Under the pieces are notes generated by a model. The model saw nothing but the letters and a program-made list of their open reading frames with translations, made no database searches and had not been told where the DNA came from. The translations under genes and the position numbers were made by a program. DNA of 13,542 nt from an uncultured Anaerolineaceae bacterium (GTDB lineage Bacteria; Chloroflexota; Anaerolineae; Anaerolineales; Anaerolineaceae), in NCBI GenBank assembly GCA_937907495.1, contig CALESS010000095.1, positions 1 through 13,542 on the forward strand. Reading direction: 5' to 3'. Each line of letters begins with the position of its first letter. The stretch's first letter is position 1. Shown here in pieces: positions 1 to 13,542 of the stretch.

Positions 1-730
1 TCTCGCCTGGCTGAAGCATATTTTGAAATGCCTCCACCTCAACTTCCAACCCGGCGACTCCCGGCGCGCCGCACAACCGCACTTCCACGCCCAGGGTCTC
101 CTCTGGCAGGTGGGGGGTCAGCTTCAGCGATTCAATACTGATCTCCGGCACCACCTCCAACCAGACCGTTTGCCAGATGCCGGAAACAGCCGTATACCAG
201 ATCCCTTGGGGCTTGAGCACCTGTTTGCCATGTTGCTGCATACCACGGTCGCTGGGGTCCCACACAGCCACCCGCAGCTCATTATTTTCGCCGTGCAATG
301 CGCGGGTGATATCCAGGGAGAAGGGCAGGTACCCGCCGCGGTGTTCCCCCACCAGGGTTTCATTGACCCAGACCTGGCACTGGTAATCCACCGCGCCGAA
401 ATGCAGCAAGACCCGGCCGGGTGGGGCAAATTCAGCCCGCAAAGTTGTTTCTCCCAGGCGGGGATCGCTGAAGGTGCGCCGGTACCACAGGCGCTGCTCC
501 GGCAGCAGCGGGCGCTGCACCCCGGAGAGCAACGATTCCACCGGGTAAGGCACCCGGATTTCCCCGGTATATTCCAATGGGGCGGTTTGCTCCTTCTCCA
601 GGATGGCATATTCCCACCAGCCGTTCAGGTTGAACCAGGCGGGGCGGGTCATCTGCGGGCGCGGGTACTCTGGCAGGGGGGTTGGCTCGGCAGGAACCCA
701 GGCGGTACGCAATGGATTACCACCTGGCAT
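1..730 (-). CDS. Glycoside hydrolase family 2 protein, N-terminal part (runs off left edge)
   Basis: The frame is open from an ATG at 730 to the window edge, giving 243 residues without a stop, so the C-terminal catalytic domain is missing. I translated it by hand. The N-terminus has the GH2 lead-in (PRPQMTRPAWFNLNGWWEYAI, residues 24-44, split here as PRPQMTRPAW and FNLNGWWEYAI). This is followed by the jelly-roll sugar-binding domain with LWYRRTF (about 81-87), a VWVNETLVGEHRGGYLPF stretch and GIWYTAVSGIWQTVWLEVVP near residue 180-200. These are hallmark segments of GH2 beta-galactosidase / beta-glucuronidase type enzymes. The start is supported by GGAGGA at 736-741, five bases upstream. 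It overlaps the upstream DUF2804 gene by 14 nt, so it belongs to the same operon. No signal peptide is visible. The substrate cannot be told without the TIM barrel; a galactoside, glucuronide or arabinoside are all possible. Confidence 0.9.
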   Translation of the reverse strand, partial: MPGGNPLRTAWVPAEPTPLPEYPRPQMTRPAWFNLNGWWEYAILEKEQTAPLEYTGEIRVPYPVESLLSGVQRPLLPEQRLWYRRTFSDPRLGETTLRAEFAPPGRVLLHFGAVDYQCQVWVNETLVGEHRGGYLPFSLDITRALHGENNELRVAVWDPSDRGMQQHGKQVLKPQGIWYTAVSGIWQTVWLEVVPEISIESLKLTPHLPEETLGVEVRLCGAPGVAGLEVEVEAFQNMLQPGE

Positions 731-1751
731 GGTGTTCCTCCGCAAAACCTACCAGGTCCTTGATCTCGATGGTCTCCCCCGTATCGGTGAGGGCGGTGCC
801 ATTGTATCGCCCGAACATCTGGTGCACTTCGCTGGTGATAATCAGCATCTCCGTTTTGGCCAGGCGTTCTTTGAAGGGGGTGAAAACCAGGTTCAGCCGG
901 CCTTCGTCATCGCGGAACTTCCAGGGCTGCATATAATCACCGGAGCTATAGTCGAATTGCACCGGTCCCAATTTGTGGATGCGGTTTTCCAGGATTAGGG
1001 CATTCTCACCCGCCCGGGAGAGATCTCCGAAGCCGCAGCCCAGGTTCAGGCCGACGGTGCGGCCATCCGGCAGGAATCCCGAGGCGCTCGCCCAATTCCA
1101 GTAGGATTGATAATCCCAGACACCGCGCCCCCAATCCAGCGAGCCCAGGCACAGGCCGGGATCGAGAGTCTCGCGCAGGCTGCCATATTGGATGGTGCCG
1201 CTGGCGGGAAGGCAGTTGATCTTGCGGTTCCAGTAGAAGCGCTTCTCACCGATGGGGATGACGATGTTCATGGATTCGCTTCCCGCCGGCTCGGTCAGGT
1301 CAATTTCCGCTGAAATGCCGCGCCCCTCATGGAAGGCCGGCCAGTTCACGGATAGATGGCGGCTGCCGGGCTGGACGCTGAAAACTTCCTTCAGCCGGCT
1401 GTCTTCAAAGCGGCTGATGCCTGCCGTGCTGTTACGCGGCAGTTCCACACCCTTGCCGAACGGCACCACCAGCCCCTCCTCGTGTAATTCGCCGCTTGCA
1501 AAATCCAGGGTGTACACAAACAGGTTGGCGGCATAGCCCAGGTTGGCAATGGTGGCAGAGAAGAACCGCCGCGGGGTGAAAATGGCGTAATAATCCCAGC
1601 GCTTGATGCGAAAACGCTGCAACGCTTTGAGAGCATAAAAATTGGCCTGCTCCAGGTTGCAATCCAGCAGTGGTTGGCGTGCCCAGCCGATCTGCGCCAG
1701 GCGGCCATCGGCTTGCAGCAGGGGGCCAGGTTGGGTTAATTCCGTTTGCAT
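717..1751 (-). CDS. DUF2804 family protein
   Basis: A 344-residue protein whose conserved blocks match the DUF2804 family (Pfam PF10974), which has no established biochemical role that I know of. Blocks seen (numbered from the chosen start): FYWNRKINCLPASG (about 172-185), DWGRGVWDY then YWNWASASG (206-225), DGRTVGLNLG (229-238), ENALILENRIHKL (249-261) and a C-terminal HQMFGRYNG (310-318). The protein is rich in Trp, Tyr and Gly and lacks a signal peptide or membrane segment. The frame is open upstream to an ATG at 1841 that would overlap the GH127 gene, and there is another ATG at 1763. I chose 1751 because a strong GGAGG at 1757-1761 sits five bases before it. The gene is enclosed between GH127 and GH2 genes on the same strand and overlaps the GH2 start by 14 nt. 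A role in handling or cleaving the same glycoside is an inference from context only. Confidence 0.87.
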   Translation of the reverse strand: MQTELTQPGPLLQADGRLAQIGWARQPLLDCNLEQANFYALKALQRFRIKRWDYYAIFTPRRFFSATIANLGYAANLFVYTLDFASGELHEEGLVVPFGKGVELPRNSTAGISRFEDSRLKEVFSVQPGSRHLSVNWPAFHEGRGISAEIDLTEPAGSESMNIVIPIGEKRFYWNRKINCLPASGTIQYGSLRETLDPGLCLGSLDWGRGVWDYQSYWNWASASGFLPDGRTVGLNLGCGFGDLSRAGENALILENRIHKLGPVQFDYSSGDYMQPWKFRDDEGRLNLVFTPFKERLAKTEMLIITSEVHQMFGRYNGTALTDTGETIEIKDLVGFAEEHHARW

Positions 1752-1756
1752 TCGAT

Positions 1757-1761
1757 CCTCC
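1757..1761 (-). promoter_or_regulatory. Ribosome binding site that decides the DUF2804 start
   Basis: On the minus strand GGAGG is followed by a five-base spacer (ATCGA) and the ATG at 1751. The in-frame ATG at 1763 overlaps this motif and has only a weak GGAAG upstream, and the ATG at 1841 lies inside the GH127 gene. This favours 1751 as the start. Confidence 0.6.
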
Positions 1762-1822
1762 ATGTAGGGTGCTTCCAACAAAACTGGGTGGGAGAGGATG
1801 GGTTTTCTCCCGTTTGAATCTG

Positions 1823-3811
1823 CTATCCCACATTCACCCAAACGGTCATTTGCGACTCGCCGCGGTTACCCCACAGCAGGTAGGGGATGAACACCAACGG
1901 CTCGCCTGTCACGGTCCGGCCGTGCAGGGTGACAATGCCGCCGGGAAGGGTCTCGTCATCTTTCACAATCAGCGAGGCCGGGTCCAGACGGCAGGTAAAA
2001 AGGTTCAGTCCGGGGTTGTCCACGGATTCCAGGCAGTAGACCAGCGGGCCGCGGGTCAGGGTGGCTTTGCCGGCATGTCCCCGCACCCTGGGGTGGGCGC
2101 GGCGCAGTTCGATGGGCAGGCGAAAATCAATTTCTATTTCATCTCCGGCCTGCCACACCCTGCGCAGGCGGATCCATTCTGCCAGCCGCGGATCATATCC
2201 GCTGGCAGTGGACTGATATGTTCGCTCCTGGCCCGGGCCTGGCGAGGTGTGCGCCTCGGGGGTGGTCAGCACAGGTTCCGCGTTCAATGTGAGCTTCATC
2301 TCCGCCGCCCAGGAGGGCCGGCGCAAGTGGAGTTGCCATTCCTCCGCCGGGGCTTCCATGACCTTCAACCGCACCCGGCCCTGCCAGGGCAGGTGCGCAT
2401 CCATCTGCAATTGCAAGGGCCCTTCGGTGAGCTGGCTGCTGATGTACTGGTGAATCCGCAGTTCACCCCGCCCGGCGCTCCCCAGGGTAGCAGTGGCAGC
2501 GTAGATGTACTTCCACAGGCTGGCCCAGGTGCGCGAGAGGTTGGACGGGCAGCAGGGCACGGCGTACCACGCTTTGCGAGTCACCCCGCCGCGGCAGGCC
2601 AGCGGATTGTTATAGAGATAGGTGCTGCCATCCAGCCCCATGCCGGGGGCGGCAGCGTTGTAGAGCTGCCACTCGAAAAGGTCACTGTATTTGCACTCCC
2701 CGCTGAGTTGTGCCATTTCCCAATTCCAGAGCAGGCTGCCAAGGGCGGCACACGTCTCGGCGTAGGCAATTTCCGGGTCCAGTTCGTAATCCCTGCCGAA
2801 GCCCTCGATCCCTGGCAGGCTGCCGATGCCGCCGGTGACATACATGCGGCGGGTCACCATGCGCTCCCACGACTGCTCGAGGGTGGGCAGCAGACTGCGA
2901 TCAGCAGTTTCCCGGCACAGGCGGGCGGCGGCTGTTTGCAGGTAGGCAAAACGCACCGAGTGCCCCACCGGAACGGCCTGGCGGCGGATGGGTTGATGCT
3001 GTTGAAAATACCCGCCACCCAGGGCGCTGGCGTACCAGCGCAGGGTGGTGAAGCGCGGCTTTTTGGAGAAGTTGCCCGCTGGCAGCCGGTATGGTTGGAA
3101 ATCCGGGTGGGCAGCCAGGTAGGCCCCCTTGCGCTGGCGGACGGTTTTTTCCCGCCGGGCCACCTGCATGTTTTGGCGCACAATGGACAGGCCGAATCCC
3201 CATTGGCGCCCGCGCTGTTCGATGAACTGGCGCGCCAGATCCAGGTAGGCCTTGCTTTGGGTCACGGAGAACAGTCGCAGCAGGGCGATTTCGATTTCCT
3301 CATGACCGGGGGTGCGGGCTGCACCCTGCCCGGCAAAATCCACCACAATGCGGTCGGCTGCCCGGCAGGCGATCTGCAACAGGTCCTGGCGGCTGGTGGC
3401 TTCAAAATGCGAAACCCCCGCTTCGATCAGGTGACCGTGGCAGTACAGCTCATGCTCGATTTGCAAATTCTGCCAACGCTGACCGGGGAAGTGGATTTGA
3501 TTATAGGTGAAGAGGTAACCATCCGGCATTTGTGCCTGCCCCAGCAGGGCGATGAAACCATCCACCACGGCAGCCAATTGAGGGTCGGGGTGATTGGCCA
3601 GGATGCAGGCGGCGGCATCCAGCCATTTATAGGCATCGGAATCGGCAAAAAACCAACCCTCGCGCCAGCCCGCGGCCTGGCCTGCGGCAATGCGGAAATT
3701 CTGGATGCAGCCGGAGGCTTCCAACTGCTGCCACTGGTGGAAGATGGCCTGGCTGGCGTTGACCTCCAGCCGCGAGTGCCAGAAACCCGGCAGGATTTTA
3801 ACCAACCCCAT
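1823..3811 (-). CDS. GH127 beta-L-arabinofuranosidase-like glycoside hydrolase (DUF1680)
   Basis: A 662-residue protein, full length for the GH127 family, whose founding member HypBA1 releases beta-L-arabinofuranose. As I recall that enzyme, its active site is a zinc-thiolate centre: Glu338, Cys340, Cys417 (nucleophile) and Cys418, with Glu322 as acid/base. The equivalents here are Glu352 and Cys354 in YAETC, Cys420 and Cys421 in the VPCCPSN motif, and Glu336 in GIEGFGRDYEL. The 16-residue spacing from Glu336 to Glu352 equals that from 322 to 338. An (alpha/alpha)6 barrel lead-in is seen (SDAYKWLDAA about 58-67, MPDGYLFTYNQ 95-105, ELYCHGHLIEAG 121-132) and the C-terminus is beta-rich. No signal peptide is visible, so it is probably cytoplasmic. 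The start has GGAAG close upstream and overlaps the end of the transporter gene by 14 nt. Close substrate (beta-L-arabinofuranoside versus another furanoside/pyranoside) is not fixed by the sequence, because related families share the fold. Confidence 0.93.
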   Translation of the reverse strand: MGLVKILPGFWHSRLEVNASQAIFHQWQQLEASGCIQNFRIAAGQAAGWREGWFFADSDAYKWLDAAACILANHPDPQLAAVVDGFIALLGQAQMPDGYLFTYNQIHFPGQRWQNLQIEHELYCHGHLIEAGVSHFEATSRQDLLQIACRAADRIVVDFAGQGAARTPGHEEIEIALLRLFSVTQSKAYLDLARQFIEQRGRQWGFGLSIVRQNMQVARREKTVRQRKGAYLAAHPDFQPYRLPAGNFSKKPRFTTLRWYASALGGGYFQQHQPIRRQAVPVGHSVRFAYLQTAAARLCRETADRSLLPTLEQSWERMVTRRMYVTGGIGSLPGIEGFGRDYELDPEIAYAETCAALGSLLWNWEMAQLSGECKYSDLFEWQLYNAAAPGMGLDGSTYLYNNPLACRGGVTRKAWYAVPCCPSNLSRTWASLWKYIYAATATLGSAGRGELRIHQYISSQLTEGPLQLQMDAHLPWQGRVRLKVMEAPAEEWQLHLRRPSWAAEMKLTLNAEPVLTTPEAHTSPGPGQERTYQSTASGYDPRLAEWIRLRRVWQAGDEIEIDFRLPIELRRAHPRVRGHAGKATLTRGPLVYCLESVDNPGLNLFTCRLDPASLIVKDDETLPGGIVTLHGRTVTGEPLVFIPYLLWGNRGESQMTVWVNVG

Positions 3812-5093
3812 GACTCTTCCGGTCAGAGATCAGGAACAGCGGAATGAGCGAGAGCAAGGCGATGGCCGAACCCACCTGGAAGATGATCGGCACGGGGATG
3901 AACCCCGCCTCGCCATTTACAACCGTGGGGATGCCAAAATTCTGGATCAGGTTCGAGCCGATCCAGGGGCCGAGCACCATCGGAATGGCAATCCAGAAGA
4001 TCATGCGGATGCCGAGGAACTTGCCGCGGTTTTGCTCTGGCAGCAGATCCTTCAGCCAGGCCACCGAGGCTACGGAACCCGCCACGGCAAAAGCCTGCCA
4101 TAACAGCCCCGTCAGCGCCAGCAGGGGCAGCGTTTTCACCAGCGAAAGGGCTACCCCGCCCAGGCTGCTGGCAATGATCGCAATCGCCATCATCCAGCGT
4201 TTGCTGAAACGATCCGCCAGGATGCCAAACGGGATGGAGAGCAGTGCGCTGCCCACCATCACCGCCCCGCCGATGACGCTGAACTCGCTTTTGCTGACGC
4301 CGATGTAATTGTTGAGGTAAATTATCAGGTAGGGGAACGAAACCTGCATCCCGATGCTGCTGATCATGATGAAGAGCAGCAGCGTGAATAGCTGGCGGTT
4401 CTGGCGCAGGGTATCCAGGCTAAAAAGCTCGGCGAACTCCGCCCAGAAGGAACGGCGGGGTGGTTCCCGGGTGAGGATGGGGGCATCCCGCAGCAGGCTG
4501 CCCGCCACCAGGCCCACCAACATCACGATTCCACCCAGGACATAGAAGAAGATAAAGTAGCCGACCTGGTCAATCAACATCCCGGCTGCCGTCAGAGAGA
4601 TGACCTGGGCGATGAAGACGCTCATATTCAAGACACCCTCCACCCGGCCGCGGCTGTTGCTGCTGGCAATATCCGCGGTCCAGGCTGAAAAGGCCGCATC
4701 GTTGGCGGTGGAACCGAAAAAGGTCATCAGCGAGTCCATCACCACCACCATCAGGATCGCCAGGCTGGTGGTCTTGATATAGGCCGTGGTTGGGAACAGG
4801 ATGGTAGAAAGCCCCCACAGGACGTAACCGATGAGAATGTAGGGGCGGCGCCTCCCCCAGCGGGAGCGGGTGCGGTCGCTGAGGGTGCCCATCAGCAGGG
4901 TGGTGAGGGTGGCGGTAATCGCACTGGCTGCCACCATCCAGGCTACCGGGCGCGGGTCCGGCGTGATGGTGTCGAAGACGAAGGTGTTGAACCAGGAGTT
5001 CTCGACCGCCCAGGCGATCTGCCCGGTGATGGCCAAAGCCGTCAGGATGATCCAGGTGCGCAAGGGGATGGAAGGCGAAGGGGGATGATTCAT
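3798..5093 (-). CDS. MFS sugar transporter (GPH / SLC45-like type)
   Basis: A 431-residue, very hydrophobic protein with about twelve membrane segments. The cytoplasmic loop between helices 2 and 3 carries a motif-A-like GTLSDRTRSRWGRRRPYIL (about 69-87), and a weaker repeat, FGILADRFSKRW, occurs at 289-300, as expected for the duplicated MFS fold. The GRVEGVLN stretch near 149-156 and the general layout resemble glycoside-pentoside-hexuronide and SLC45-like cation-coupled sugar symporters. It is the first gene of the minus-strand operon and its end overlaps the GH127 start by 14 nt, so its cargo is probably the glycoside degraded by the downstream enzymes. There is no convincing Shine-Dalgarno motif before the ATG at 5093; the upstream bases are AGAAAGCAGCAGCC. 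Exact substrate and coupling ion cannot be read from the sequence. Confidence 0.9.
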   Translation of the reverse strand: MNHPPSPSIPLRTWIILTALAITGQIAWAVENSWFNTFVFDTITPDPRPVAWMVAASAITATLTTLLMGTLSDRTRSRWGRRRPYILIGYVLWGLSTILFPTTAYIKTTSLAILMVVVMDSLMTFFGSTANDAAFSAWTADIASSNSRGRVEGVLNMSVFIAQVISLTAAGMLIDQVGYFIFFYVLGGIVMLVGLVAGSLLRDAPILTREPPRRSFWAEFAELFSLDTLRQNRQLFTLLLFIMISSIGMQVSFPYLIIYLNNYIGVSKSEFSVIGGAVMVGSALLSIPFGILADRFSKRWMMAIAIIASSLGGVALSLVKTLPLLALTGLLWQAFAVAGSVASVAWLKDLLPEQNRGKFLGIRMIFWIAIPMVLGPWIGSNLIQNFGIPTVVNGEAGFIPVPIIFQVGSAIALLSLIPLFLISDRKSHGVG

Positions 5094-5270
5094 GGCTGCT
5101 GCTTTCTGAGCTGAAATGGAGAAACCAGTATTATTCTATATCAATTTCTTTAGCGGGAAGCGCGATAATAGGGGTGGAGGCGGAACAGCCGGATGAGTAA
5201 CCTTTAGCGGAGGGGCAAATTTCCGGCGGCTTTCCCCTTACGCCAACCAGGAAATCGATTCTTGACGAAG
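5094..5270. promoter_or_regulatory. Divergent intergenic region between the sugar operon and the DoxX-like gene
   Basis: This is the only place where the left operon can be promoted from inside the window. It holds the most AT-rich patch in the left half (about 5129-5151). A minus-strand hexamer TAGAAT at 5133-5138 could be a -10 element, but no good -35 lies at the usual spacing. A 9-bp direct repeat, CTTTAGCGG, occurs at 5148-5156 and 5202-5210 and could mark regulator sites, though it may be chance. No clear plus-strand promoter and no terminator hairpin were found. Confidence 0.3.
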
Positions 5271-5630
5271 ATGAACATTATCCTTTGGATCTTGCAGGTC
5301 ATTCTGGCGCTGAAATTATTCTCTGCAGCCATCGAACATGGTTTTCGCCAGGCGAGGCCGGAGATGGCGGCTGCCCGCAAAAAGTTTGGCAGAGCTGCCC
5401 CAGTGTTGCTTTACCTGACCGCGCTGGGCACCTTTTTTGGCGCCTTCAGCCTGGTGTTGCCCGGCCTGTTGAACTTCAATCCGCTAATCACGCCGATCGT
5501 GGCGGTTGCGGTGACCGTGCTGCTGCTGGCTTCCATCCCCCTCCACCTGCGCAGCCGGGAAAAGCCAAAAGTCTTCGTCAGCCTGGTGCTGGCGATTTTT
5601 GCCATCTTCGTTGCCATCGGCCGCGGCTAG
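5271..5630 (+). CDS. DoxX-like small integral membrane protein
   Basis: A 119-residue protein with four predicted membrane helices at about 2-20, 43-65, 69-92 and 100-116. A charged loop, HGFRQARPEMAAARKKFG, follows helix 1 and the basic segment HLRSREKPKV precedes helix 4. Size, topology and the N-terminal pattern fit the DoxX-like (DoxX_2) family, whose members are mostly uncharacterised. The start is uncertain: the frame also has a TTG at 5262 with AGGAA about nine bases upstream, while the ATG at 5271 has only GACGAAG directly before it. I list the ATG because the protein then starts right at the first helix; the TTG would add three residues. It lies 36 bp upstream of the S66 peptidase gene on the same strand and could be co-transcribed with it. 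Confidence 0.72.
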   Translation: MNIILWILQVILALKLFSAAIEHGFRQARPEMAAARKKFGRAAPVLLYLTALGTFFGAFSLVLPGLLNFNPLITPIVAVAVTVLLLASIPLHLRSREKPKVFVSLVLAIFAIFVAIGRG

Positions 5631-5666
5631 GGCATTGCATCTTCAGGTGTTCTTACGGAGCGAACC

Positions 5667-6689
5667 ATGACCCATAATTTGATCAAGCCACCCCGTTTGC
5701 AACCCGGTGATACCATCGGCATTGTCAGCCCGTCATGGGGCGGGGCGGGTAAGTTCCCCCACCGCACCCGGCAAGGGATCGAACAGCTCAATGCCCTGAG
5801 CTATAAAGTGCGGCTGGCGCCACATGCCCTCAACCATCAGGGGTTTGTTTCCGATTCGGCAGCCAACCGGGCGCAGGATATTAACCAGATGTTTGCGGAC
5901 CCGGAGATCAAGGCCATCCTGCCTGCCATTGGCGGGGATCATTCGTGCCACCTGCTACCCCTGCTGGATTTTGACTGCATCGCCCGCAACCCCAAGATCT
6001 TCATCGGCTTTTCGGATAATACGGTGTTGAACGTTGCCATTCACCACCAGACGGGGCTGGTGACCTTCAGCGGCCTGGCGCTACTGACGGATTTTGCCGA
6101 GTATCCCCGCATGTTTGCCTACACCCGGGAATACTTCCTCAAGGCGGTTGCCAGCGGCCAGCCAGTGGGGGAAGTGCAACCCGCCCCCGAATGGACGGAG
6201 GAATACCTGACCTGGGCCGGCGAGCAAGACCGCACCCGGCCGCGCCACCGGCAGCCCAACCCCGGCTGGAGCTGGCTCAAGCCGGGGCAGGCGCAAGGCC
6301 GGTTGCTGGGCGGCTGCCTCGAATCGCTGCAACACTTGCGCGGCACACCCTACTGGCCGGGCTGGGAAAACGCAATCCTCTTCTTCGAGACTTCGGAGGA
6401 AAAGCCTTCTCCGGAGGAGGTGGATGGCATCTTGATGGACTATGAGAATATGGGTGTGCTGCAGAAACTGGCAGGGATGCTGGTGGGCCGGCCCATGAAG
6501 TATTCGGATGAGGAAAAACAAAACCTGCGGGAGTGCATCCTGGAACGGACGCAAGCCTACAGCTTCCCAATCATCACGGATATGGATTTTGGCCACACCG
6601 CCCCGCAGATGATGCTGCCCCTCGGCTGCCTGGCAAAAATTGACGCCACCGCCCGCAGATTTGAAATCCTGGAGGCGGCGGTGATTTGA
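5667..6689 (+). CDS. S66 family LD-carboxypeptidase (MccF-like)
   Basis: A 340-residue protein with the two-domain layout of peptidase family S66, which includes the murein LD-carboxypeptidase LdcA and the microcin C7 self-immunity peptidase MccF. The N-terminal domain has LQPGDTIGIVSPS (11-23), AILPAIGGDHSCHLLPLLD (83-101) and the nucleophile elbow IGFSDNT with Ser116. The C-terminal domain has ILFFETSEE with Glu241 and MDFGHTAP with His310. The spacing is nearly that recalled for MccF (Ser118/Glu243/His311), and the FETSEE form is typical of that branch. No signal peptide is visible, so it is probably cytoplasmic and would act in peptidoglycan tetrapeptide recycling or in cleaving acyl-sulfamoyl or peptide-nucleotide toxins. 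CGGAG ends six bases before the ATG. It is convergent with the phosphatase gene, leaving a 27-bp gap. Confidence 0.9.
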   Translation: MTHNLIKPPRLQPGDTIGIVSPSWGGAGKFPHRTRQGIEQLNALSYKVRLAPHALNHQGFVSDSAANRAQDINQMFADPEIKAILPAIGGDHSCHLLPLLDFDCIARNPKIFIGFSDNTVLNVAIHHQTGLVTFSGLALLTDFAEYPRMFAYTREYFLKAVASGQPVGEVQPAPEWTEEYLTWAGEQDRTRPRHRQPNPGWSWLKPGQAQGRLLGGCLESLQHLRGTPYWPGWENAILFFETSEEKPSPEEVDGILMDYENMGVLQKLAGMLVGRPMKYSDEEKQNLRECILERTQAYSFPIITDMDFGHTAPQMMLPLGCLAKIDATARRFEILEAAVI

Positions 6690-6716
6690 ATCCGCAATTT
6701 TTGAGGGAAAGCCGGG

Positions 6717-7280
6717 CTATCGCTTTCCCCACTCCACCCACTGCGGGGTGGCATTTTCCGGGATGACGGTATACGCCTTGCCCACCGGGATGCCGCGCAC
6801 CTGGCAGATGATGGTAGCCAGCGAAAGCCCATGCGAAACCAGCAGCACATTTCCTGCCGGGTGGCGGGCAGATATTTCCTCCAGCGCCGCTGCCACCCGC
6901 CGGGCTACTTCGCCCACGGTTTCGCCACCCGGCGGGCGGAAACTGGCAGGGTCTTCGCTGCGTTTCTCCCAGAATTCGGCATAGCGGGCCTGGATCACCC
7001 CCACCAGTTGGCCCTCCCATTCCCCCTGGTTGATCTCTCGTAAGCGCGGTTCCAATTGCACCGGCAGCTGGAGCGCACCGGCGATGATGCGGGCTGTCTC
7101 GGCGGCGCGTTCCAGGTCACTGGAGTAAATGGCGCAGAAGGGTTGCCCTGCCAGTTGGCGGGCAGCGGCCCGGGCTTGCTGGCGGCCTGTCTCGTTGAGC
7201 GAGACATCGCTCTGGCCCTGGTAGCGGCCCTCGAGGTTCCAATCGGTTTGTCCATGGCGGACGAGGCAAAAACGGATCAT
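6717..7280 (-). CDS. Histidine phosphatase superfamily protein, probable glucosyl-3-phosphoglycerate phosphatase
   Basis: A 187-residue cytoplasmic phosphatase of the phosphoglycerate-mutase-like superfamily. The phospho-accepting histidine is His9 in LVRHGQTDWN, the second histidine is His150 in LLVSHG, and Arg8, Arg58 (SDLERAAETA) and Glu82 (LREINQGEWEG) complete the usual pocket. Sequence alone would allow alpha-ribazole phosphatase or a generic phosphatase. Context argues otherwise: its ATG overlaps the stop of the GpgS-type synthase by 4 nt (ATGA, 7277-7280). In mycobacteria the phosphatase that turns glucosyl-3-phosphoglycerate into glucosylglycerate (GpgP) belongs to this same superfamily. 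I therefore infer a GpgP role. It is the last gene of the four-gene operon. Family assignment is firm; the substrate is inferred from context. Confidence 0.9.
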   Translation of the reverse strand: MIRFCLVRHGQTDWNLEGRYQGQSDVSLNETGRQQARAAARQLAGQPFCAIYSSDLERAAETARIIAGALQLPVQLEPRLREINQGEWEGQLVGVIQARYAEFWEKRSEDPASFRPPGGETVGEVARRVAAALEEISARHPAGNVLLVSHGLSLATIICQVRGIPVGKAYTVIPENATPQWVEWGKR

Positions 7281-9061
7281 TTCTTGTTGCGCTCCTGGTA
7301 GGCGGGCAGGCTGTTCATCGGCGGACGTTCCAGTTCCGCCACCTCCACCACATCCAAATAATAACCGCCCTTGGAGCGGCGGATGAGCTTCATGCTCTTG
7401 TTTACATCCTCGATGATGGAACGCTCGTAGCGGGTTTCCAGCTTTCGCAGCACGGTCTGGATGATGGTGAAGGACATTTTGCTCAGGGCTTCCAAGTCTT
7501 GATTGGTGTGGATTCGCTCTTGCAAATCCACCTGGGCGATCGCCCGCAGGCCATACTTCTCAAAGATATCAATCAGCAGCCCGGTTTCCACTCCATAGCC
7601 GGAAAAGAAGACGATATCTTCCAGCGCTTCGCGCCGGCCCGCGTATTCACCAGAAAGGGGCTGAATGACCCCGGAAAGCTCAGGGTAGAACAGGTTCAGC
7701 AGCGGGCGGGCGGTTAATTCCGTCACCCGGCCTCCGCCCCCCACCTGGATGCGGTTCCCCACCCGCAGCGGGCGGCGGTAAAAGCCTTTGACAAATTGAA
7801 CCGTCTGGTTGATGAGCAGCGGGCCGATGATACCATAGACGAACATCGGGTGGATGTTGAGGATATCCGTATCAATCCAGGCCAGGATATCGCCTTTGGT
7901 CACCAGCAAACTTTTCCAGAGCGCCTCCCCTTTGCCGCGGCGGGGTCCCAGTTCCGGCAGCAGCTCCTGGTGGATGTAGACCGGCACGCCCAGGTCTTCC
8001 GCGATCTGGCGGGTGCGGTCGGTGGAGTTGGAGTCCATCAGGATGAGTTCATCCAGCAGGGGAAAATCTTCCATCAGCGCCTTTTTGATGGTGGTGATGA
8101 CCTTGCCGACCGTTTTTTCTTCGTTCAGCGAGGGCAAAGCCAGGCTGATGGTGGTTCCCTGGCGCTCTTTGAGCGCCACCAGCTGTTTCAGGTCGGAAAA
8201 CTCCTCTGCATGGTAGGTGTTCTCGGCGAACCACTTATCCACCAGGATCGAAATGGCTTGCGTGCCCACCCGCTCATCAAACATGGCTGCCGAGACGGGC
8301 TGGCGGGTCTTGACGACCATGATGGTGGCAGGTGAATCCTTCAACATTTTCTGCGCCACCGCGCCGATGGAAGATGTACCCAGGTTCGGGCTGGCTGTGG
8401 CCCCCAACACCACCAGGTCGTAGGAGCTGGATTCCTCGTAGATGGTTTTTAAGACATCCGAAGTCACGATGGAGCGCAGGTTCACCTCCGGCATCTGCGG
8501 CAAGATATCCGCCAAGCCTTTGAAGGGAGCATCATTCACCGCCCCCGTCAGCGCCAGGTGGAGGACATCCAATTGGGCGGGCTTTATCCGCATGGAAACC
8601 CGCAGGGCAAGTTCAGCATGGGGGCCGCCGCGCACCGCAATCAGGGTGCGGTCAAACTTCACCTCGCCGGCCCCGCGCACAATGGCCACATTGCAACTGT
8701 GGTTGGAAAACACATCCGAAACCGAAATGCCGCACGAGGTTTTGCCATCCACCCACTCCGTAATAAAGAGGTCGGGTTTTTCTGTCTCAATCACCATCTG
8801 CAGGTCGCGCCAGGGCTTTTCCGCCACGATGACGGTGGATTTGTAACGGGTGGAGTCGCTGCTGAGCGAAAAAAGCAATTTGCGAATCTCGCGGGCGATG
8901 CCCGCTGCCGCGCTGACTTGACCGCCGGCGGCGATGGGTGCCACCCCCACCAGGATCACCTCTTCGGCGATCGCAGCAGCCAGGGTGAGGGCGGTCTGGT
9001 TGCTTTCGTTAATTCCAATCGGCACGAGGGCCGTTTTGATTCTGCGAACGGGATTACTCAT
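7277..9061 (-). CDS. gpgS: Glucosyl-3-phosphoglycerate synthase (GT81) with N-terminal universal-stress-protein domains
   Basis: A 594-residue protein, far longer than stand-alone GpgS (about 320 residues in mycobacteria as I recall). Residues 1-130 and about 135-255 look like two Usp-type alpha/beta domains: a KTALVPIGINESNQTALTLA start, ending SCNVAIVRG, then a repeat FDRTLIAVRGGPHAELALRV ending ATIMVVKTR. The ATP-binding glycine motif in the second is degenerate (GATASPNLGTSSIG). From about 295 a GT-A fold follows: ISLALPSLNEEKTVG, MDSNSTDRT (342-350), GKGEALWKS (376-384), the metal-binding DTD at 397-399, GGGRVTELTARPLLN (442-456) and SGEYAGRRE (470-478). These are signature blocks of GpgS, which joins NDP-glucose to 3-phosphoglycerate, the committing step to glucosylglycerate. 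It overlaps both neighbours by ATGA (9058-9061 and 7277-7280). The catalytic assignment is strong; the role of the Usp part is unknown and could be regulatory or structural. Confidence 0.92.
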   Translation of the reverse strand: MSNPVRRIKTALVPIGINESNQTALTLAAAIAEEVILVGVAPIAAGGQVSAAAGIAREIRKLLFSLSSDSTRYKSTVIVAEKPWRDLQMVIETEKPDLFITEWVDGKTSCGISVSDVFSNHSCNVAIVRGAGEVKFDRTLIAVRGGPHAELALRVSMRIKPAQLDVLHLALTGAVNDAPFKGLADILPQMPEVNLRSIVTSDVLKTIYEESSSYDLVVLGATASPNLGTSSIGAVAQKMLKDSPATIMVVKTRQPVSAAMFDERVGTQAISILVDKWFAENTYHAEEFSDLKQLVALKERQGTTISLALPSLNEEKTVGKVITTIKKALMEDFPLLDELILMDSNSTDRTRQIAEDLGVPVYIHQELLPELGPRRGKGEALWKSLLVTKGDILAWIDTDILNIHPMFVYGIIGPLLINQTVQFVKGFYRRPLRVGNRIQVGGGGRVTELTARPLLNLFYPELSGVIQPLSGEYAGRREALEDIVFFSGYGVETGLLIDIFEKYGLRAIAQVDLQERIHTNQDLEALSKMSFTIIQTVLRKLETRYERSIIEDVNKSMKLIRRSKGGYYLDVVEVAELERPPMNSLPAYQERNKK

Positions 9062-10284
9062 TGGGTTACCTCTTGCAGCAAAGGTTCGATATGAATCCGG
9101 TAGATGGATTCCCAGGTGTAGCCATGTTTGGCCTGGCGCGCCCAGCGGGAAGTGGTTTCGTCCTTCAGGCGCCGGGCAATTTGCCGGGCAATTTCTTGCG
9201 GGTCGCCATCCGGCGCAAAATAGCTGACATCATCGCCGCCCAGTTCGCGCAAGACGGGAAGATCCGCGCAGAAGACGGGGATGTTGCTGAAACCAGCCTC
9301 GATGAGCGGGATGCCAAACCCTTCCTCGCGGCTGGGGAAGAGCAGCGCATCCGCCAGGCGGTAGAAATCAGCAATCACTGCATCCGGCAGGAAATCCGGG
9401 CTGAGTTCGGCCAGAAAATGCGCCTTCCCTTGCAGGCCCAGTTGATCGCGCAGTTGCAGCAAGCGGTCTTTGTAACTGGCGTTGGCCGGGTTATGCGGGC
9501 CTTCCGGGCCGGTCACCAGCAAGCGGGCTTCGGGCAGGCTGGGCAGCAGTTCCTTGAGGATCTGCAGGGCCAGCTCGATATTTTTACGGGCCGTCAGGCG
9601 GGCGGGCAACAGCAGCAGCGGGTCGGCGCCGCCCAGGTCGAGCTGATCGGCCAGTTCAATCGTCCGGGGTTCCAATTTGTAAAACCGGTTCAGGTCCACC
9701 CCGTTGGGAATGACCCGGATTGAATCCTGCGGAATGTTGAACAGGCGGGCCAGCTCCTGGCGGCGGCGCTCGGAAACGACAACCTGCCGGGCGGCGGGCC
9801 AGGCGCGGCTTAACAGATCCCAGGGGTAGCCCTCGGAGAGTTCGTGACGATAACGGGGGGTGGTCCAGGCCAGGTCGTGGTGCCAGAGGATGAGGCGCGG
9901 AAAGCCGGGCTTTTGGGCAGCCTGGTGAATGGCAGCCGTCAGGGCCAGGCTTTTATGCAGCGAAGCCACATTGTGTGCAATGAGCACGTCAAAACCTGCC
10001 AGTTCTGTTTGCAAGTCCGCTTCAATCTCGTCGCGCAGGGTCTCAAAATCTGCTGGAACATGCCCCTGATCCAGGTGGGATTTGATCTCCAACACCTGCC
10101 GCTGGCGCGAATCCAGGCGGGGCAGGATCTGAACCGGGATATGGGGGTCCAACTGCCGGCCTCGCCCGGCCAGGATCTTCACCTGGTGACCGGCTTTCAC
10201 CATCTGGCGGGCATGATGAGCCATGACACTCTCCACTCCTCCCACAATCGGCGGAGCGGAATAATGCAGCAATCCTATCTTCAT
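9058..10284 (-). CDS. GT4 family glycosyltransferase
   Basis: A 408-residue GT-B retaining glycosyltransferase. The N-terminal domain starts MKIGLLHYSAPPIVGGVES, with the glycine loop GGVES at 15-19. The linker has VIPNGVDLNRF (about 191-201). The C-terminal domain has LPARLTARKN (about 226-235) and the EX7E motif, Glu321 to Glu329 within SREEGFGIPLIEAG, which binds the donor nucleotide sugar. The frame is open six codons further upstream, but the start at 10284 has an ideal GGGGAGG four bases upstream and gives a 4-nt ATGA overlap with the preceding gene. Its stop overlaps the GpgS start in the same way. No membrane segment is seen. Donor and acceptor are not readable; by context it may add a sugar to glucosyl-3-phosphoglycerate or glucosylglycerate, or build a related glycoside. 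Confidence 0.9.
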   Translation of the reverse strand: MKIGLLHYSAPPIVGGVESVMAHHARQMVKAGHQVKILAGRGRQLDPHIPVQILPRLDSRQRQVLEIKSHLDQGHVPADFETLRDEIEADLQTELAGFDVLIAHNVASLHKSLALTAAIHQAAQKPGFPRLILWHHDLAWTTPRYRHELSEGYPWDLLSRAWPAARQVVVSERRRQELARLFNIPQDSIRVIPNGVDLNRFYKLEPRTIELADQLDLGGADPLLLLPARLTARKNIELALQILKELLPSLPEARLLVTGPEGPHNPANASYKDRLLQLRDQLGLQGKAHFLAELSPDFLPDAVIADFYRLADALLFPSREEGFGIPLIEAGFSNIPVFCADLPVLRELGGDDVSYFAPDGDPQEIARQIARRLKDETTSRWARQAKHGYTWESIYRIHIEPLLQEVTQ

Positions 10285-11621
10285 ACAGCCTCCCCAAAAC
10301 AATCGGCCAGCAACATGCCCAGGCGGCGTTCCAGCATGGTGAAGGAATAATAACGCCGCGCCAGTTCGTAATTTTGCTCTCCCAGCATTTGTGTTTCTTC
10401 GTGGTGGGTGAGGCGGTGACGCGTCTGTTCCAGCGTCTTTTCGCTGATAAAGCCGTCAAATTCGATCACCTTGAAGCCCTTGGGCTTGATATCAGCCTCG
10501 TAGATGGAGTAGTTGTTGACCACCAATGGCCGCTTGTAATACAGGGCTTCCAGGAAGGCGTTGCCGAAGCCTTCGATGGAGGAGGGGTAGGTCACCAAAT
10601 CGGCCTGCGGAAAGACATCCGCCAGGGTGTAGATTTTTCGGCCATCCGCGGTGCGGCCGCGGGCTACGCCCACGATATCGGACTCGAAATTAACCGTCAC
10701 ATCCAGCAGGCTGGCGAATTCACGCACCCGTTTCTCGTAGTCCGTGCCTTCATCCCCCGCGGCGTGAGAGATGACCAACTCGGCAGGCAGACCCAGCCGG
10801 CGGGTGAGTTCGATGGCGTGTTCGATGCCTTTGCGCTGGATGATGCGTGTCGGCTGCAGGATGAGGTATTGATCCGGTGCCAGCCCCAAATCGGCGCGGG
10901 CGGAGAGGGCATACTCATCCAGCGGGGGCGGCGGAGAATCAAAATCCATCACATTGGGGATGACCATGGCTGCCGCGCCGATGCGGGAGGCCAGGTCGCG
11001 CGCCTGGACAGAGTTCAACACTACGTGACGGATGGCAGGCAGGCGGGCCGGGAAAGCTGCGTCCAGGTAATCTTGCACGGAATTGTTCATGAATCGCTGG
11101 CGTTCCCAGTAGAAATCGTGGTGGTGGGCGATCACCGGGTAGCCAGTCTCGGCGATGAACTCGGTGATGGCCAGGCCCAGCGGCAGGTTGACGGGAATGG
11201 TCAGGGCATTTTCAACGATCAGCACCTCCAGGGAAAACTGGCGGGCAAAATGGTAAAGATGCTCTTTGAAGTATTCCTTCAGCTGCTGGATTTGCCGGGT
11301 GATGCTGGCAGGCCGGATGAAAGCAGAAAAGAACTCCTGGTGCAGCACCTGTATTTCCGGATGGGTGTTCACGGTTTCATGCAGGTTTCCCCAGGCGGCG
11401 GCAAACACGGCCTGGTTAATGGCGGCAATCGCCGGGTGACGGTAAAAAGCTTCGGGAACCAGGTAGCACTGCCCCTGCGGGCGATCGCATTCACCGCTAA
11501 AATAATAGCAGGTATGCCCCATGCGGCCGAGGACCTCGGCCCATTTTTCAGTTTCCAAAGAAACCCCATCGGTGCCTGCGAACCTCGTGGAAATAAACCC
11601 GATTCGTCTTGAGGGTGTCAT
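10281..11621 (-). CDS. GT4 family glycosyltransferase, candidate mannosylglucosylglycerate-type synthase
   Basis: A 446-residue GT-B glycosyltransferase and the first gene of the four-gene operon. It has an N-terminal glycine loop (TRFAGTDGVSLETEKWAEVL, 12-31), an unusual VIAHHHDFYWERQRF block (163-177), AMVIPNVMDFDSP (218-230), QPTRIIQRKGIEHAI (256-270) and the EX7E motif Glu350 to Glu358 in SSIEGFGNAFLEAL. Length and motifs are typical of GT4. Petrotoga is known to make mannosylglucosylglycerate with GT4-type enzymes working next to GpgS-type synthases, so this protein is a candidate for that step; I cannot prove it from the sequence. The start at 11621 has AAGGAG six bases upstream. Its stop overlaps the next start as ATGA (10281-10284). 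It is divergent from the GH13 phosphorylase, with 53 bp between the start codons. Confidence 0.9.
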   Translation of the reverse strand: MTPSRRIGFISTRFAGTDGVSLETEKWAEVLGRMGHTCYYFSGECDRPQGQCYLVPEAFYRHPAIAAINQAVFAAAWGNLHETVNTHPEIQVLHQEFFSAFIRPASITRQIQQLKEYFKEHLYHFARQFSLEVLIVENALTIPVNLPLGLAITEFIAETGYPVIAHHHDFYWERQRFMNNSVQDYLDAAFPARLPAIRHVVLNSVQARDLASRIGAAAMVIPNVMDFDSPPPPLDEYALSARADLGLAPDQYLILQPTRIIQRKGIEHAIELTRRLGLPAELVISHAAGDEGTDYEKRVREFASLLDVTVNFESDIVGVARGRTADGRKIYTLADVFPQADLVTYPSSIEGFGNAFLEALYYKRPLVVNNYSIYEADIKPKGFKVIEFDGFISEKTLEQTRHRLTHHEETQMLGEQNYELARRYYSFTMLERRLGMLLADCFGEAV

Positions 11622-11663
11622 AACGTTCTCCTTCTATTCCAAATTACCCCCATTTTGATACGG

Positions 11664-11669
11664 TACAAT
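11664..11669 (+). promoter_or_regulatory. Candidate -10 element for the GH13 phosphorylase gene
   Basis: TACAAT matches five of six bases of the TATAAT consensus and ends five bases before the ATG at 11675. Transcription starting about seven bases downstream would begin at or next to the start codon, so the mRNA could be leaderless. No Shine-Dalgarno motif precedes this ATG. A good -35 hexamer at 16-18 bp was not found, so the call stays tentative. Confidence 0.4.
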
Positions 11670-11674
11670 TAGAT

Positions 11675-13321
11675 ATGTCTACCACTTTTTATACCACAAA
11701 ACTGTCTTTTCTCTATGGGGCAGAAGCCGCAGAGCGGGTGGAACCCCGTCTGCGGGAAATCATCCAACGCTATCGCGGCAAAATCCCGGGCCAAACAGGC
11801 GCAGCGCTCACCCAGCGGGATGCCCTGCTGATCACCTATGGCGACCAGGTGAGTGAGCCGGACCGCCCACCCCTGCAAACCCTGGCCGAATTTTGCGAGA
11901 CCCACCTGCGCGGCCTGGTGAATGGGATTCACCTGCTGCCCTTCTATCCCTGGTCCTCCGATGACGGCTTCTCCGTCATGGATTACCGGGCGGTGGATCC
12001 GGCTTTGGGCGGCTGGCTGGATATTGAACGCCTCGCCCGCTCGTTTAACCTGATGTTTGATGGGGTCATCAACCATGCCTCGGTAGAGGGAGCCTGGTTC
12101 CGGGCTTTTCTGCGCGATGAGCCGCCCTTCAACCGCTATTTTCTGACTGTGGAAGGTGAGCCGGATTTGTCAGAGGTGGTGCGGCCGCGCGCCTTACCCC
12201 TGCTGACGGAGTTCCAGACCACCGCCGGGCGGCGCCGGGTATGGACCACTTTCAGTGCCGACCAGGCCGACCTGGATTATCACAACCCGCAGGTGCTGCT
12301 GGAAATCCTCGATATCCTGCTGATGTATGCCAGCCGGGGCGCTCAATTCATCCGCCTGGATGCGATTGCCTACCTGTGGAAGGAGATCGGCACGGCCTGC
12401 ATCCACCTGCCGCAGACCCATTTCGTCATCCAGTTACTGCGGGCCGCGCTGGATGAGGCCGCTCCGCAGGTTAAACTGATCACCGAAACCAATGTTCCGC
12501 ATTTGGATAATATCTCTTACTTCGGCGATGGCAGCAACGAGGCACAACTGGTGTATAACTTTGCCCTGCCGCCGTTGGTTCTACACACTCTGCGCACCGG
12601 GGATGTGCGGGCACTCTCCGGCTGGGCTGCCGGATTGGCGCTGGCCTCGGATCAGACCACCTTTTTCAACTTCCTGGCCTCGCATGATGGCATCGGGTTG
12701 AACCCGGCCCGCGGCCTGCTGACCCCGGCGGAAATTGAGTCCCTGGTGGCGCAAACCCTGGCGCATGGCGGCCGGATCTCCTACAAGCAGAATGCAGATG
12801 GCAGCCGCAGCCCCTACGAGATGAATATCAGTTTCTTCGATGCCCTTTCGGATCCGGCGGGGGGGGAGCCGCTGGCGTTGCAGGCGGCGCGCTTCATGGC
12901 CTCCCAGGCCATCATGCTCTCGTTGCGCGGCGTTCCCGGGATTTATTTCCACAGCCTGTTCGGCTCCCGCAACTGGCAGGAGGGCGTGAGCCTCAGCGGG
13001 CATAACCGCAGCATCAACCGGCAAAAGCTATCCCGCGCCGGGTTGGAAACCGAGCTGGCCCGCCCGGATTCGCTCCGTTCCCTCGTCTTCCGCCGCTACA
13101 GTCAATTGTTGCAGCAGCGGGCGGCTTCCGCGGCCTTCCATCCGCATGGGGAGCAACGGATTCTGGAGGTGGGGAGGGGTGTATTCGCTGCCTGGCGTTC
13201 CTCACCCGGCGGGGAGGAGAGCATGCTGTGCCTGCAAAATGTAACCAGCCATCCGCAAACTGCCGCCGGGCATGATCTGGCGCCCTATGAGACGCTCTGG
13301 CTGCCCAACCCCGACCTGTAA
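11675..13321 (+). CDS. GH13 subfamily 18 phosphorylase, probable glucosylglycerate (or sucrose-type) phosphorylase
   Basis: A 548-residue cytoplasmic TIM-barrel enzyme of the sucrose-phosphorylase branch of GH13. It phosphorolyses an alpha-glucoside, giving alpha-glucose 1-phosphate. Conserved regions are present in order: NGIHLLPFYPWSSDDGFSV (83-101), DGVINHAS (129-136), QFIRLDAIAYLWKEIGT with nucleophile Asp229, LITETNVPHLDNISYFG with acid/base Glu271, and FLASHDGIG with the transition-state Asp338. The ETNVPH form, as I recall it, fits the non-bifidobacterial branch that includes glucosylglycerate phosphorylases (Meiothermus silvanus enzyme, E. coli YcjM). Divergent neighbours that make glucosylglycerate support that substrate, but sucrose, sucrose 6-phosphate or glucosylglycerol remain possible. 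The ATG at 11675 has no Shine-Dalgarno motif; the next in-frame ATG is 101 codons later, past conserved regions, so 11675 is preferred. Confidence 0.9.
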   Translation: MSTTFYTTKLSFLYGAEAAERVEPRLREIIQRYRGKIPGQTGAALTQRDALLITYGDQVSEPDRPPLQTLAEFCETHLRGLVNGIHLLPFYPWSSDDGFSVMDYRAVDPALGGWLDIERLARSFNLMFDGVINHASVEGAWFRAFLRDEPPFNRYFLTVEGEPDLSEVVRPRALPLLTEFQTTAGRRRVWTTFSADQADLDYHNPQVLLEILDILLMYASRGAQFIRLDAIAYLWKEIGTACIHLPQTHFVIQLLRAALDEAAPQVKLITETNVPHLDNISYFGDGSNEAQLVYNFALPPLVLHTLRTGDVRALSGWAAGLALASDQTTFFNFLASHDGIGLNPARGLLTPAEIESLVAQTLAHGGRISYKQNADGSRSPYEMNISFFDALSDPAGGEPLALQAARFMASQAIMLSLRGVPGIYFHSLFGSRNWQEGVSLSGHNRSINRQKLSRAGLETELARPDSLRSLVFRRYSQLLQQRAASAAFHPHGEQRILEVGRGVFAAWRSSPGGEESMLCLQNVTSHPQTAAGHDLAPYETLWLPNPDL

Positions 13322-13323
13322 GG

Positions 13324-13348
13324 CAGGCCCGCGTCATCCCGGGGCCTG
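13324..13348 (+). terminator. GC-rich hairpin just after the GH13 phosphorylase gene
   Basis: CAGGCCC at 13324-13330 pairs perfectly with GGGCCTG at 13342-13348, giving a 7-bp stem with an 11-nt loop that begins three bases after the stop codon. No T-tract follows, so if it ends transcription it is not a classical intrinsic terminator. It could also act as an mRNA 3' stabiliser. Confidence 0.4.
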
Positions 13349-13369
13349 ATCGCGGGGGCGTACCCGTCC

Positions 13370-13405
13370 GTAGGGGCACGGATCGCGGTAGGGGCACGGG
13401 AAGTT
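13370..13405. repeat. Two direct copies of GTAGGGGCACGG at 18-bp spacing
   Basis: The 12-mer GTAGGGGCACGG occurs at 13370-13381 and 13388-13399. It is the reverse complement of the core of the repeat at 13431-13507, so the region holds two arms in opposite orientation. No coding capacity is evident. Confidence 0.8.
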
Positions 13406-13446
13406 AACCAGGATGTTAATCCGGAGCATGCGTCCCGTGCCCCTAC
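13388..13446. repeat. Perfect 13-bp inverted repeat (large hairpin)
   Basis: GTAGGGGCACGGG at 13388-13400 is the exact reverse complement of CCCGTGCCCCTAC at 13434-13446, with a 33-nt loop between. A second, outer pairing of the 12-mer is possible between 13370-13381 and 13464-13475. The structure could be an intergenic REP-like or MITE-like element, or a strong bidirectional hairpin. Confidence 0.75.
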
Positions 13447-13507
13447 ATGGATACGCGTGCGTCCCGTGCCCCTACATGGATACGCGCCCGTCCCGTGCCG
13501 TTACCGG
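13431..13507. repeat. Tandem repeat with a 29-bp period, about 2.7 copies
   Basis: Unit 1 (13431-13459) and unit 2 (13460-13488) agree at their first 27 of 29 positions. A third, degraded and truncated unit runs 13489-13507. Each begins CGTCCCGTGCC. Units are contiguous, with no unique spacers, so this is not a CRISPR array. Confidence 0.8.
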
Positions 13508-13523
13508 AGGGGGGTCACGGTGC

Positions 13524-13542
13524 ATGACTCACAATGTCAAAC
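13524..13542 (+). CDS. Possible start of a further gene, cut by the right edge
   Basis: An ATG at 13524 opens a frame reading MTHNVK to the window end. A purine-rich GGAGGGGGG at 13506-13514 lies upstream, with nine bases between its end and the ATG. A GTG at 13520 in another frame is an alternative. The first residues resemble the MTHNLIK start of the S66 peptidase at 5667, but six residues are too few to infer a family. Confidence 0.2.

Follow-up and report, generated by a model that had tools for sequence, protein, structure and literature searches.

Glucosylglycerate (GG) phosphorylases (2-O-glucosylglycerate phosphorylase, GGaP; EC 2.4.1.352) form a clade of subfamily GH13_18 that includes the enzymes of E. 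coli (YcjM), Meiothermus silvanus, and Spirochaeta thermophila. They are marked by a (T/S)ETN motif at strand 5 and by a Glu in loop A, activity of the M. silvanus enzyme being severely lowered by substitution of Asn275 and Glu383, and their genes often accompany those of glycerate kinase, GpgS, or GpgP (PMC7178133). On the synthesis side, the mycobacterial GpgS and the MpgS of R. xylanophilus belong to family GT81, and in the mannosylglucosylglycerate (MGG) pathways of Petrotoga and Thermotoga (GpgS, MggA, MggB, and MggS), GpgS adjoins glycosyltransferases. By 2013, MGG had been recorded in no organisms other than two Petrotoga species and Rhodopirellula baltica; in the latter, its level increases when nitrogen is limiting, and a role as K+ counterion has been proposed (PMC3694870). 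In mycobacteria, a GG hydrolase acts in the recovery from nitrogen starvation (PMC6608630). Here, we describe a five-gene locus in a 13,542-nucleotide stretch of DNA from an uncultured Anaerolineaceae bacterium (contig CALESS010000095.1, positions 1 to 13,542; hereafter, the window), which unites a GpgS fused to Usp domains, two GT4 glycosyltransferases, a histidine phosphatase, and a predicted GGaP. We consider that this locus is probably an endogenous compatible-solute module for GG, probably together with an extended form of it.

The features of the locus, in window coordinates, are the following.

6717..7280, minus strand: histidine phosphatase (branch 1), last gene of the overlapping operon (His_Phos_1, 211 bits)
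7277..9061, minus strand: Usp-GpgS, GT81; two Usp domains at about residues 8-252 and GpgS part at about 274-585
9058..10284, minus strand: GT4b glycosyltransferase; 408 aa from the ATG at 10284, 414 aa from the TTG at 10302
10281..11621, minus strand: GT4a glycosyltransferase, a divergent relative of mannosylglucosylglycerate synthase
11622..11674, no strand: divergent intergenic region of 53 bp between the start codons of GT4a and GGaP, defined by coordinates and sequence
11675..13321, plus strand: GH13_18 phosphorylase, predicted 2-O-glucosylglycerate phosphorylase (GGaP)

The four minus-strand genes follow one another in the order GT4a, GT4b, Usp-GpgS, and histidine phosphatase, and all three junctions (GT4a/GT4b, GT4b/Usp-GpgS, and Usp-GpgS/phosphatase) are 4-nt ATGA overlaps, suggesting translational coupling. 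The GGaP gene diverges from this operon, with start codons at 11621 (GT4a) and 11675 (GGaP), and a purine-rich stretch precedes the GT4a start within the 53 bp that separate them. Promoter and terminator scans gave 4 and 9 sites, against 2.3 and 6.6 on average in shuffles, and were not informative. Family assignments rest on Pfam, NCBIfam, and PDB sequence searches. The first-pass annotation, a reading of the sequence by a model, had placed five genes here in these families and had described the divergence of the four-gene operon from the GH13_18 gene across 53 bp; both descriptions hold.

The C-terminal part of Usp-GpgS passes the GpgS equivalog NF010496 (388 bits against a cutoff of 262). 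Residues D397 and D399 (DxD), K377 (GKGE), GGRVTEL 443-449, R516, and H518, which we take to be the metal site and substrate motifs of GpgS, are invariant in 38/38 aligned sequences, and the same motifs are also found in mycobacterial GpgS in the alignment of PDB sequences. With an AlphaFold model built from 30 sequences (pLDDT 81), Foldseek retrieved R. xylanophilus MpgS (E 7.5e-28) and mycobacterial GpgS, followed by the tandem Usp structures 3loq and 3cis (Rv2623), the catalytic domain being 39-45% identical to mycobacterial GpgS and R. xylanophilus MpgS in the structural alignments. The window protein thus shares its catalytic domain with these GT81 enzymes, but adds an N-terminal region of ~250 residues that, from profile matches and the model, we read as two Usp domains in tandem: Pfam Usp reaches 25.8 bits against 24 in the window protein, no single stretch passing alone, and two Usp stretches were present in 6/6 long, divergent relatives scanned. 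ATP-binding Usp domains carry the motif G-2x-G-9x-G(S/T), which is degenerate in the second Usp domain (G220-A-T-A223 ... G233-A234 in the window protein, read from the sequence and the 38-sequence alignment). In each of 12/12 genomes, only one protein exceeds the GpgS cutoff, with an open frame of ~600 aa or more, in keeping with the fusion. A further known domain fused to Usp-GpgS was sought and rejected, Pfam giving only Usp and GT2 in 6 proteins of 861-1425 aa. In three relatives (L090, L091, and L092), the Usp-GpgS frame reaches 1101-1425 aa and has a long N-terminal part that no Pfam family matches, through either the choice of start or a genuine extension. In three others (L098 778-2493, L099 805-2427, and L106 5848-7326), an open reading frame (ORF) of 490-570 aa abuts Usp-GpgS and is weakly similar (22-25%) to its GT2 part; the one such ORF scanned, that of L099, has no Pfam match.

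The phosphorylase matches the GH13 alpha-amylase fold (68 bits, Pfam), and its relatives are sucrose-phosphorylase-like. Its catalytic residues are the nucleophile D229, the acid/base Glu of TETN 270-273, and D338, with SPYE 379-382 in loop A; the Glu of this loop sits where most other clades have Gln, and SPYE aligns to DIYQ of sucrose phosphorylase. TETN and the loop-A Glu are present in 50/50 genuine aligned sequences, i.e., the window sequence, E. coli YcjM (44% identical to it over 540 positions), and 49 ORFs of 480-700 aa from one cluster of the relatives' neighbor genes (cluster 3), less an antisense misread ORF (L012_6) that was removed after the fact. The window enzyme is therefore a predicted GGaP, like the described clade in TETN, loop-A Glu, and length; its gene differs in that the divergent neighbor is an overlapping four-gene operon containing a Usp fusion and a pair of GT4 genes, and in the absence of a glycerate kinase from the window. 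The reading that it is a sucrose phosphorylase whose link to GpgS is incidental would draw on the fact that sucrose phosphorylase is its best named model and structure match. We find it hardly credible and rejected this identity, since the score to the equivalog TIGR03852 stays at 184.8 bits against a cutoff of 334.4, and TETN and the loop-A Glu replace the sucrose-type residues. A strictly sucrose-specific phosphorylase, on which the first-pass proposal would have foundered, is disfavored by the same score.

Scanning genomes with Usp-GpgS yielded 214 confirmed relatives, and the analysis used the best 80 loci, which lean to the kin of the window. Their titles name Chloroflexi, Anaerolineae, and known Chloroflexota groups, with the exception of two bins, of Deltaproteobacteria (L036) and Acidobacteria (L045), whose Usp-GpgS may stem from transfer or misbinning. 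By tblastn, the divergent five-gene form recurs in 10/80 loci (L001, L002, L005, L010, and L012-L017), one of them from a cultured organism, Flexilinea flocculi TC1 (L014); the arrangement is real and not due to chance. In four of these loci (L001, L002, L015, and L017) the contig stops within the GGaP gene; the GGaP gene of L010 lies in two frames (3506 to ~5150; G010 C125 39800-41331), through an assembly error or a broken gene.

Conservation was counted in the 49 loci with full flanks (≥5.5 kb upstream, ≥1.5 kb downstream). GT4b is present in 47/49, on the same strand and directly upstream (within 400 bp) of Usp-GpgS; GT4a is present in 38/49, GGaP in 39/49, and the phosphatase in 18/49 (tblastn, ≥45% identity). 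GT4b, GT4a, and GGaP occur together in 35/49 and all five genes in 13/49. Counting by ORF clusters instead gave 47, 37, 39, and 18 for the single genes, 34 for the trio, and 11 for all five; the tblastn counts are preferred because ORF picking went wrong at some loci, as in L005 and L012, where antisense ORFs were called across GT4a. The most frequent order is a codirectional GGaP-GT4a-GT4b-Usp-GpgS, with or without the phosphatase (23/49), next to a divergent GGaP (8/49) and a GGaP, with or without GT4a, placed after Usp-GpgS (6/49). Two loci show single-case orders with GGaP (L067 and L075), the remaining 10/49 have no GGaP, and in one locus outside the 49 (L021), GT4a and GGaP are inverted. 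The 17.8 kb analyzed of Thermanaerothrix daxensis (L066) contain no GT4a. The association of the genes hence persists through at least five gene orders, and the neighborhood is conserved in related genomes, as the first-pass proposal needed it to be.

The pairing of Usp-GpgS with a GH13_18 gene, for which a search across genomes had been advised, was likewise recovered in a scan of 251 Chloroflexota genomes. Among the matches listed, and with score limits set by hand (Usp-GpgS ≥260 bits, GGaP ≥537, and GT4a-like ≥147), Usp-GpgS was found in 73 genomes, GGaP in 32, and a GT4a-like gene in 34. Usp-GpgS accompanies GGaP in 30/32 GGaP genomes, within 10 kb in 18 (Fisher p 1.5e-16, uncorrected for kinship). 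A GT4b-like match lies on the same strand at ≤1.5 kb from Usp-GpgS in 48/73, a rough figure based on weak matches to another family's model. Altogether, the proposal that GG synthesis and phosphorolysis meet in one conserved locus is supported by the GpgS cutoff, the GGaP signatures, and the conserved neighborhood.

The extension of GG by the GT4 enzymes, also part of the first-pass proposal, is only likely. The best model for GT4a is mannosylglucosylglycerate synthase (NF041101), matched over its full length at 205 bits against a cutoff of 640, and GT4b is more distant still (75 bits). All 30 sequences in the GT4a alignment match this model; on 14 controls, 3 matched, including Thermotoga maritima, and 1 passed. 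The JGI annotation calls some GT4a and GT4b orthologs mannosylglucosylglycerate synthase. Among the 120 protein-search matches listed, no named Thermotoga or Petrotoga MGG synthase appears, the named organisms being Chloroflexi. GT4a has no sequence match among solved structures in single-sequence or profile searches, and its model (pLDDT 81) shows a GT-B fold whose closest structures are BshA and further GT4 enzymes (PimA, SPS, and TreT). As these are general GT-B/GT4 enzymes that do not discriminate, the fold search was set aside as a guide to donor and acceptor. Judged by its profile match, GT4a may work like MggS, though it is not classed as a member. Petrotoga reportedly has a phosphorylated (MggA) and a nonphosphorylated (MggS) route to MGG; by analogy, the pair of GT4 genes found here with GpgS and a phosphatase could correspond to these two routes. 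The window differs from the Petrotoga and Thermotoga pathways in combining a phosphorylase with two GT4 genes at a single locus.

GT4b (Glycos_transf_1, 80 bits in Pfam; E-x7-E motif by eye) has as its best solved sequence match 7qsg (45 bits), titled methylmannose polysaccharide mannosyltransferase of M. hassiacum. This match, and a GpgS family shared with mycobacteria, would suit a role of GG as primer, elongated by both GT4 enzymes to an oligo- or polysaccharide in the manner of the GG start of mycobacterial methylglucose lipopolysaccharide. We regard such a role as improbable: the neighboring GGaP, MGH1-like hydrolases, and ion-transport context better fit a small solute, and, as a weak point, no methyl- or acyltransferase was noticed among the 40 neighbor clusters listed, a minority of which were identified.

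The wider neighborhoods also bear on the fate of the solute. MGH1-like glycoside hydrolases, which share their domain with the GG and mannosylglycerate hydrolases (GH63, MGH1-like) and are absent from the window, form two neighbor clusters, c5 in 13/80 loci and c10 in 10 other loci. Two scanned members of c5 match PF22422 at 261-264 bits and the GG hydrolase model at 99-101 against a cutoff of 550; the one scanned member of c10 matches PF22422 at 67 bits. Neither cluster occurs at the loci of the 18 closest genomes (L001-L018); PF22422 is found in 15/18 of these genomes, over the cutoff in 13. A Pfam scan revealed no glycerate kinase within the window, and each of 13/13 genomes searched has a single member of the glycerate-kinase family MOFRL. 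The locus had been called self-contained, which is too strong given the expected inactivity of GGaP on an extended solute, these hydrolases outside the closest loci, the missing glycerate kinase, and the patchy phosphatase.

Ion transporters are among the next four same-strand genes downstream of Usp-GpgS in 19/65 loci, compared with 3/45 among four upstream genes on either strand; the families (CPA2, NhaA, Na/Ca, ArsB/NhaD-like, and ClC) were picked after seeing the data, so that these counts are a description and not a test. In 8/9 cases, the CPA2 antiporter gene starts at most ~600 bp from the end of Usp-GpgS. A cluster of c-di-AMP receptors accompanies 10 loci (one member scanned: PF06153, 71 bits), and a P-II-like cluster accompanies 8 (two members scanned, one passing P-II). 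Hydrolases, Na+/H+ antiporters, P-II-like, and c-di-AMP-receptor neighbors in some relatives point to osmotic and ion homeostasis, and the ion-transport and receptor neighbors fit the theme of MGG as a K+ counterion. A conserved opposite-strand pair, c17 (~700 aa) and c18 (~347 aa), was also observed downstream of Usp-GpgS in seven relatives belonging to the group of the window itself (L006-L010, L012, and L015).

The gene content, the operon overlaps, the GGaP and GpgS signatures, and the conserved association are read directly from the DNA; from them we infer the substrates, the direction in which the reactions run in the cell, the addition of a further sugar, and the role of the Usp domains in the following model. 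Usp-GpgS would use a nucleotide sugar to glucosylate 3-phosphoglycerate, and dephosphorylation by the histidine phosphatase, or by another one, would yield GG. A hexose, with mannose the best guess, would most likely be attached to GG or GG phosphate by one or both of the GT4 enzymes, which are retaining enzymes of the GT-B type, and the product would be an MGG-like anionic solute. GGaP would convert GG and phosphate to glucose 1-phosphate and D-glycerate, so that the energy of the glucosyl bond would be kept upon withdrawal of the solute. Given the single-glucosyl subsite of its family, GGaP should not attack a solute with an extra sugar; the extended form would have to be trimmed beforehand, for which the MGH1-like hydrolases are candidates; these are in cis in some relatives and encoded at other sites in most of the 18 closest genomes. 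Synthesis is probably coupled to a stress signal by the two Usp domains.

The relationship of GT4a and the phosphatase to GGaP complicates this model. GT4a is within 10 kb of GGaP in 17/23 genomes with both, and within 10 kb of Usp-GpgS in 14/26. Moreover, three genomes (G021, G032, and G120) carry a GGaP-GT4a-histidine phosphatase unit >1 megabase from Usp-GpgS or on another contig, with a phosphatase copy 51% identical to that of the window. GT4a is thus tied more to GGaP than to GpgS. It is conceivable, though decidedly unlikely, that GGaP, GT4a, and the phosphatase are a separate module in which GGaP works in the synthetic direction (glucose 1-phosphate and glycerate to GG), providing a route additional to that of GpgS, with GT4a drawing the GG onward into an extended solute. 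Beyond the proximity and the separated units, the low KM of GGaP for D-glycerate (1-5 mM, with 110 U/mg) would suit this direction (review table in PMC11009771). The three separated units, however, are alike in one flanking gene (by eye) and may represent one event. Furthermore, the high phosphate in cells normally favors phosphorolysis.

Two genomes show GGaP in yet another setting. In G242 and G192, which have no GpgS at E ≤1e-20 (a gap that rests on possibly incomplete assemblies), the genes before GGaP encode a LacI-type regulator, a solute-binding protein, and two ABC permeases, and G242 has a GT4a-like gene (39% identical) between the permeases and GGaP. The G242 pair beside import genes fits uptake and breakdown, contrary to a synthetic GGaP. 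As ABC transporter genes also come after E. coli ycjM, one might suppose that the window phosphorylase mainly scavenges imported GG; this is very improbable, given that Usp-GpgS is found in nearly all GGaP genomes and that no transporter adjoins GGaP in the window, where 221 bases remain past the gene. Together with the Usp-GpgS-linked loci, these genomes indicate that GGaP has both an uptake context and a synthesis context.

The movable GGaP-GT4a unit was our least expected result and is the base of a more speculative proposal, to which we give a small but real chance. The locus could consist of two exchangeable modules, Usp-GpgS with GT4b and GGaP with GT4a and the phosphatase. The second module would be separable, its GGaP-GT4a core could even exist without GpgS, and in cells it would act as a phosphorylase-fed branch at GG. 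GGaP and GT4a would share GG, and the cellular status of phosphate and glucose 1-phosphate would determine whether the glucosyl unit enters storage, in the form of an extended anionic solute, or goes back to central metabolism. The Usp domains would feed into this decision, as would the c-di-AMP receptor and P-II-like partners of the relatives. If true, the solute store would be reversible at low energy cost.

Returning to the endogenous compatible-solute module that we favor, several observations weigh against it. (i) When separated from GpgS, GT4a and the phosphatase copy stay with GGaP, a pattern not accounted for by a simple linear operon for synthesis. (ii) The phosphatase is a sequence-based candidate for glucosyl-3-phosphoglycerate or its glycosylated form, but among solved structures it scores higher to phosphoserine phosphatases (4ij5, 113 bits) than to the M. 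tuberculosis GpgP (4pz9, 79 bits), and it is missing in 31/49 full-flank loci. (iii) GT4a is far under the MGG-synthase cutoff, which was passed in 0/251 Chloroflexota genomes. (iv) GGaP over the limit is lacking in 43/73 Usp-GpgS genomes, so that the recycling half is not universal. (v) Ion-transporter neighbors occur in none of L001-L018, the closest group of the window. (vi) The first sugar could be mannose, as Usp-GpgS scores alike to M. hassiacum GpgS (246 bits) and R. xylanophilus MpgS (248 bits) among PDB sequences, and as a mannosylglycerate synthase has already been reported in other Chloroflexi (PMC4918011). The latter, mgsD of Dehalococcoidia (PMC4918011, PMC4959059), is also a gene for a glycosyl-glycerate solute in this phylum, but for another solute and in another class, compared by description only. 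GGaP as partner gene argues for glucose as the first sugar.

Apart from this locus, window positions 2-5093 hold a separate sugar-use cluster without a link to it, comprising a GH2-like fragment (by eye), a DUF2804 protein, a GH127-type protein (345 bits to the aceric acid hydrolase model, under the cutoff of 950), and a GPH-type MFS transporter.

The specificity of GGaP and its company with GpgS, GpgP, and glycerate kinase are known, so that the adjacency of GGaP to GpgS, which the first-pass annotation had also put forward, is not new (PMC7178133). The five-gene form, of which that annotation knew no description, was not found described in the literature searched. In our literature search, a weak one with most subscription literature outside it, we found neither this five-gene locus in Anaerolineae nor the Usp-GpgS fusion, nor a description of a GGaP-GT4a-phosphatase unit moving apart from GpgS. 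The literature searched held no joint report of Anaerolineae and GG, and the MGG reports were not on Anaerolineae by title; papers mentioning Usp together with GG were unrelated, judging from their titles.

Our analysis suggests that Anaerolineae use GG-type solutes. Its interest lies chiefly in the conserved locus, present in the cultured Flexilinea flocculi TC1 among others, which makes the unproven role of GGaP testable. The predicted making and recycling of a stress-protecting sugar acid in these little-known bacteria would represent an unstudied stress strategy that is directly testable.

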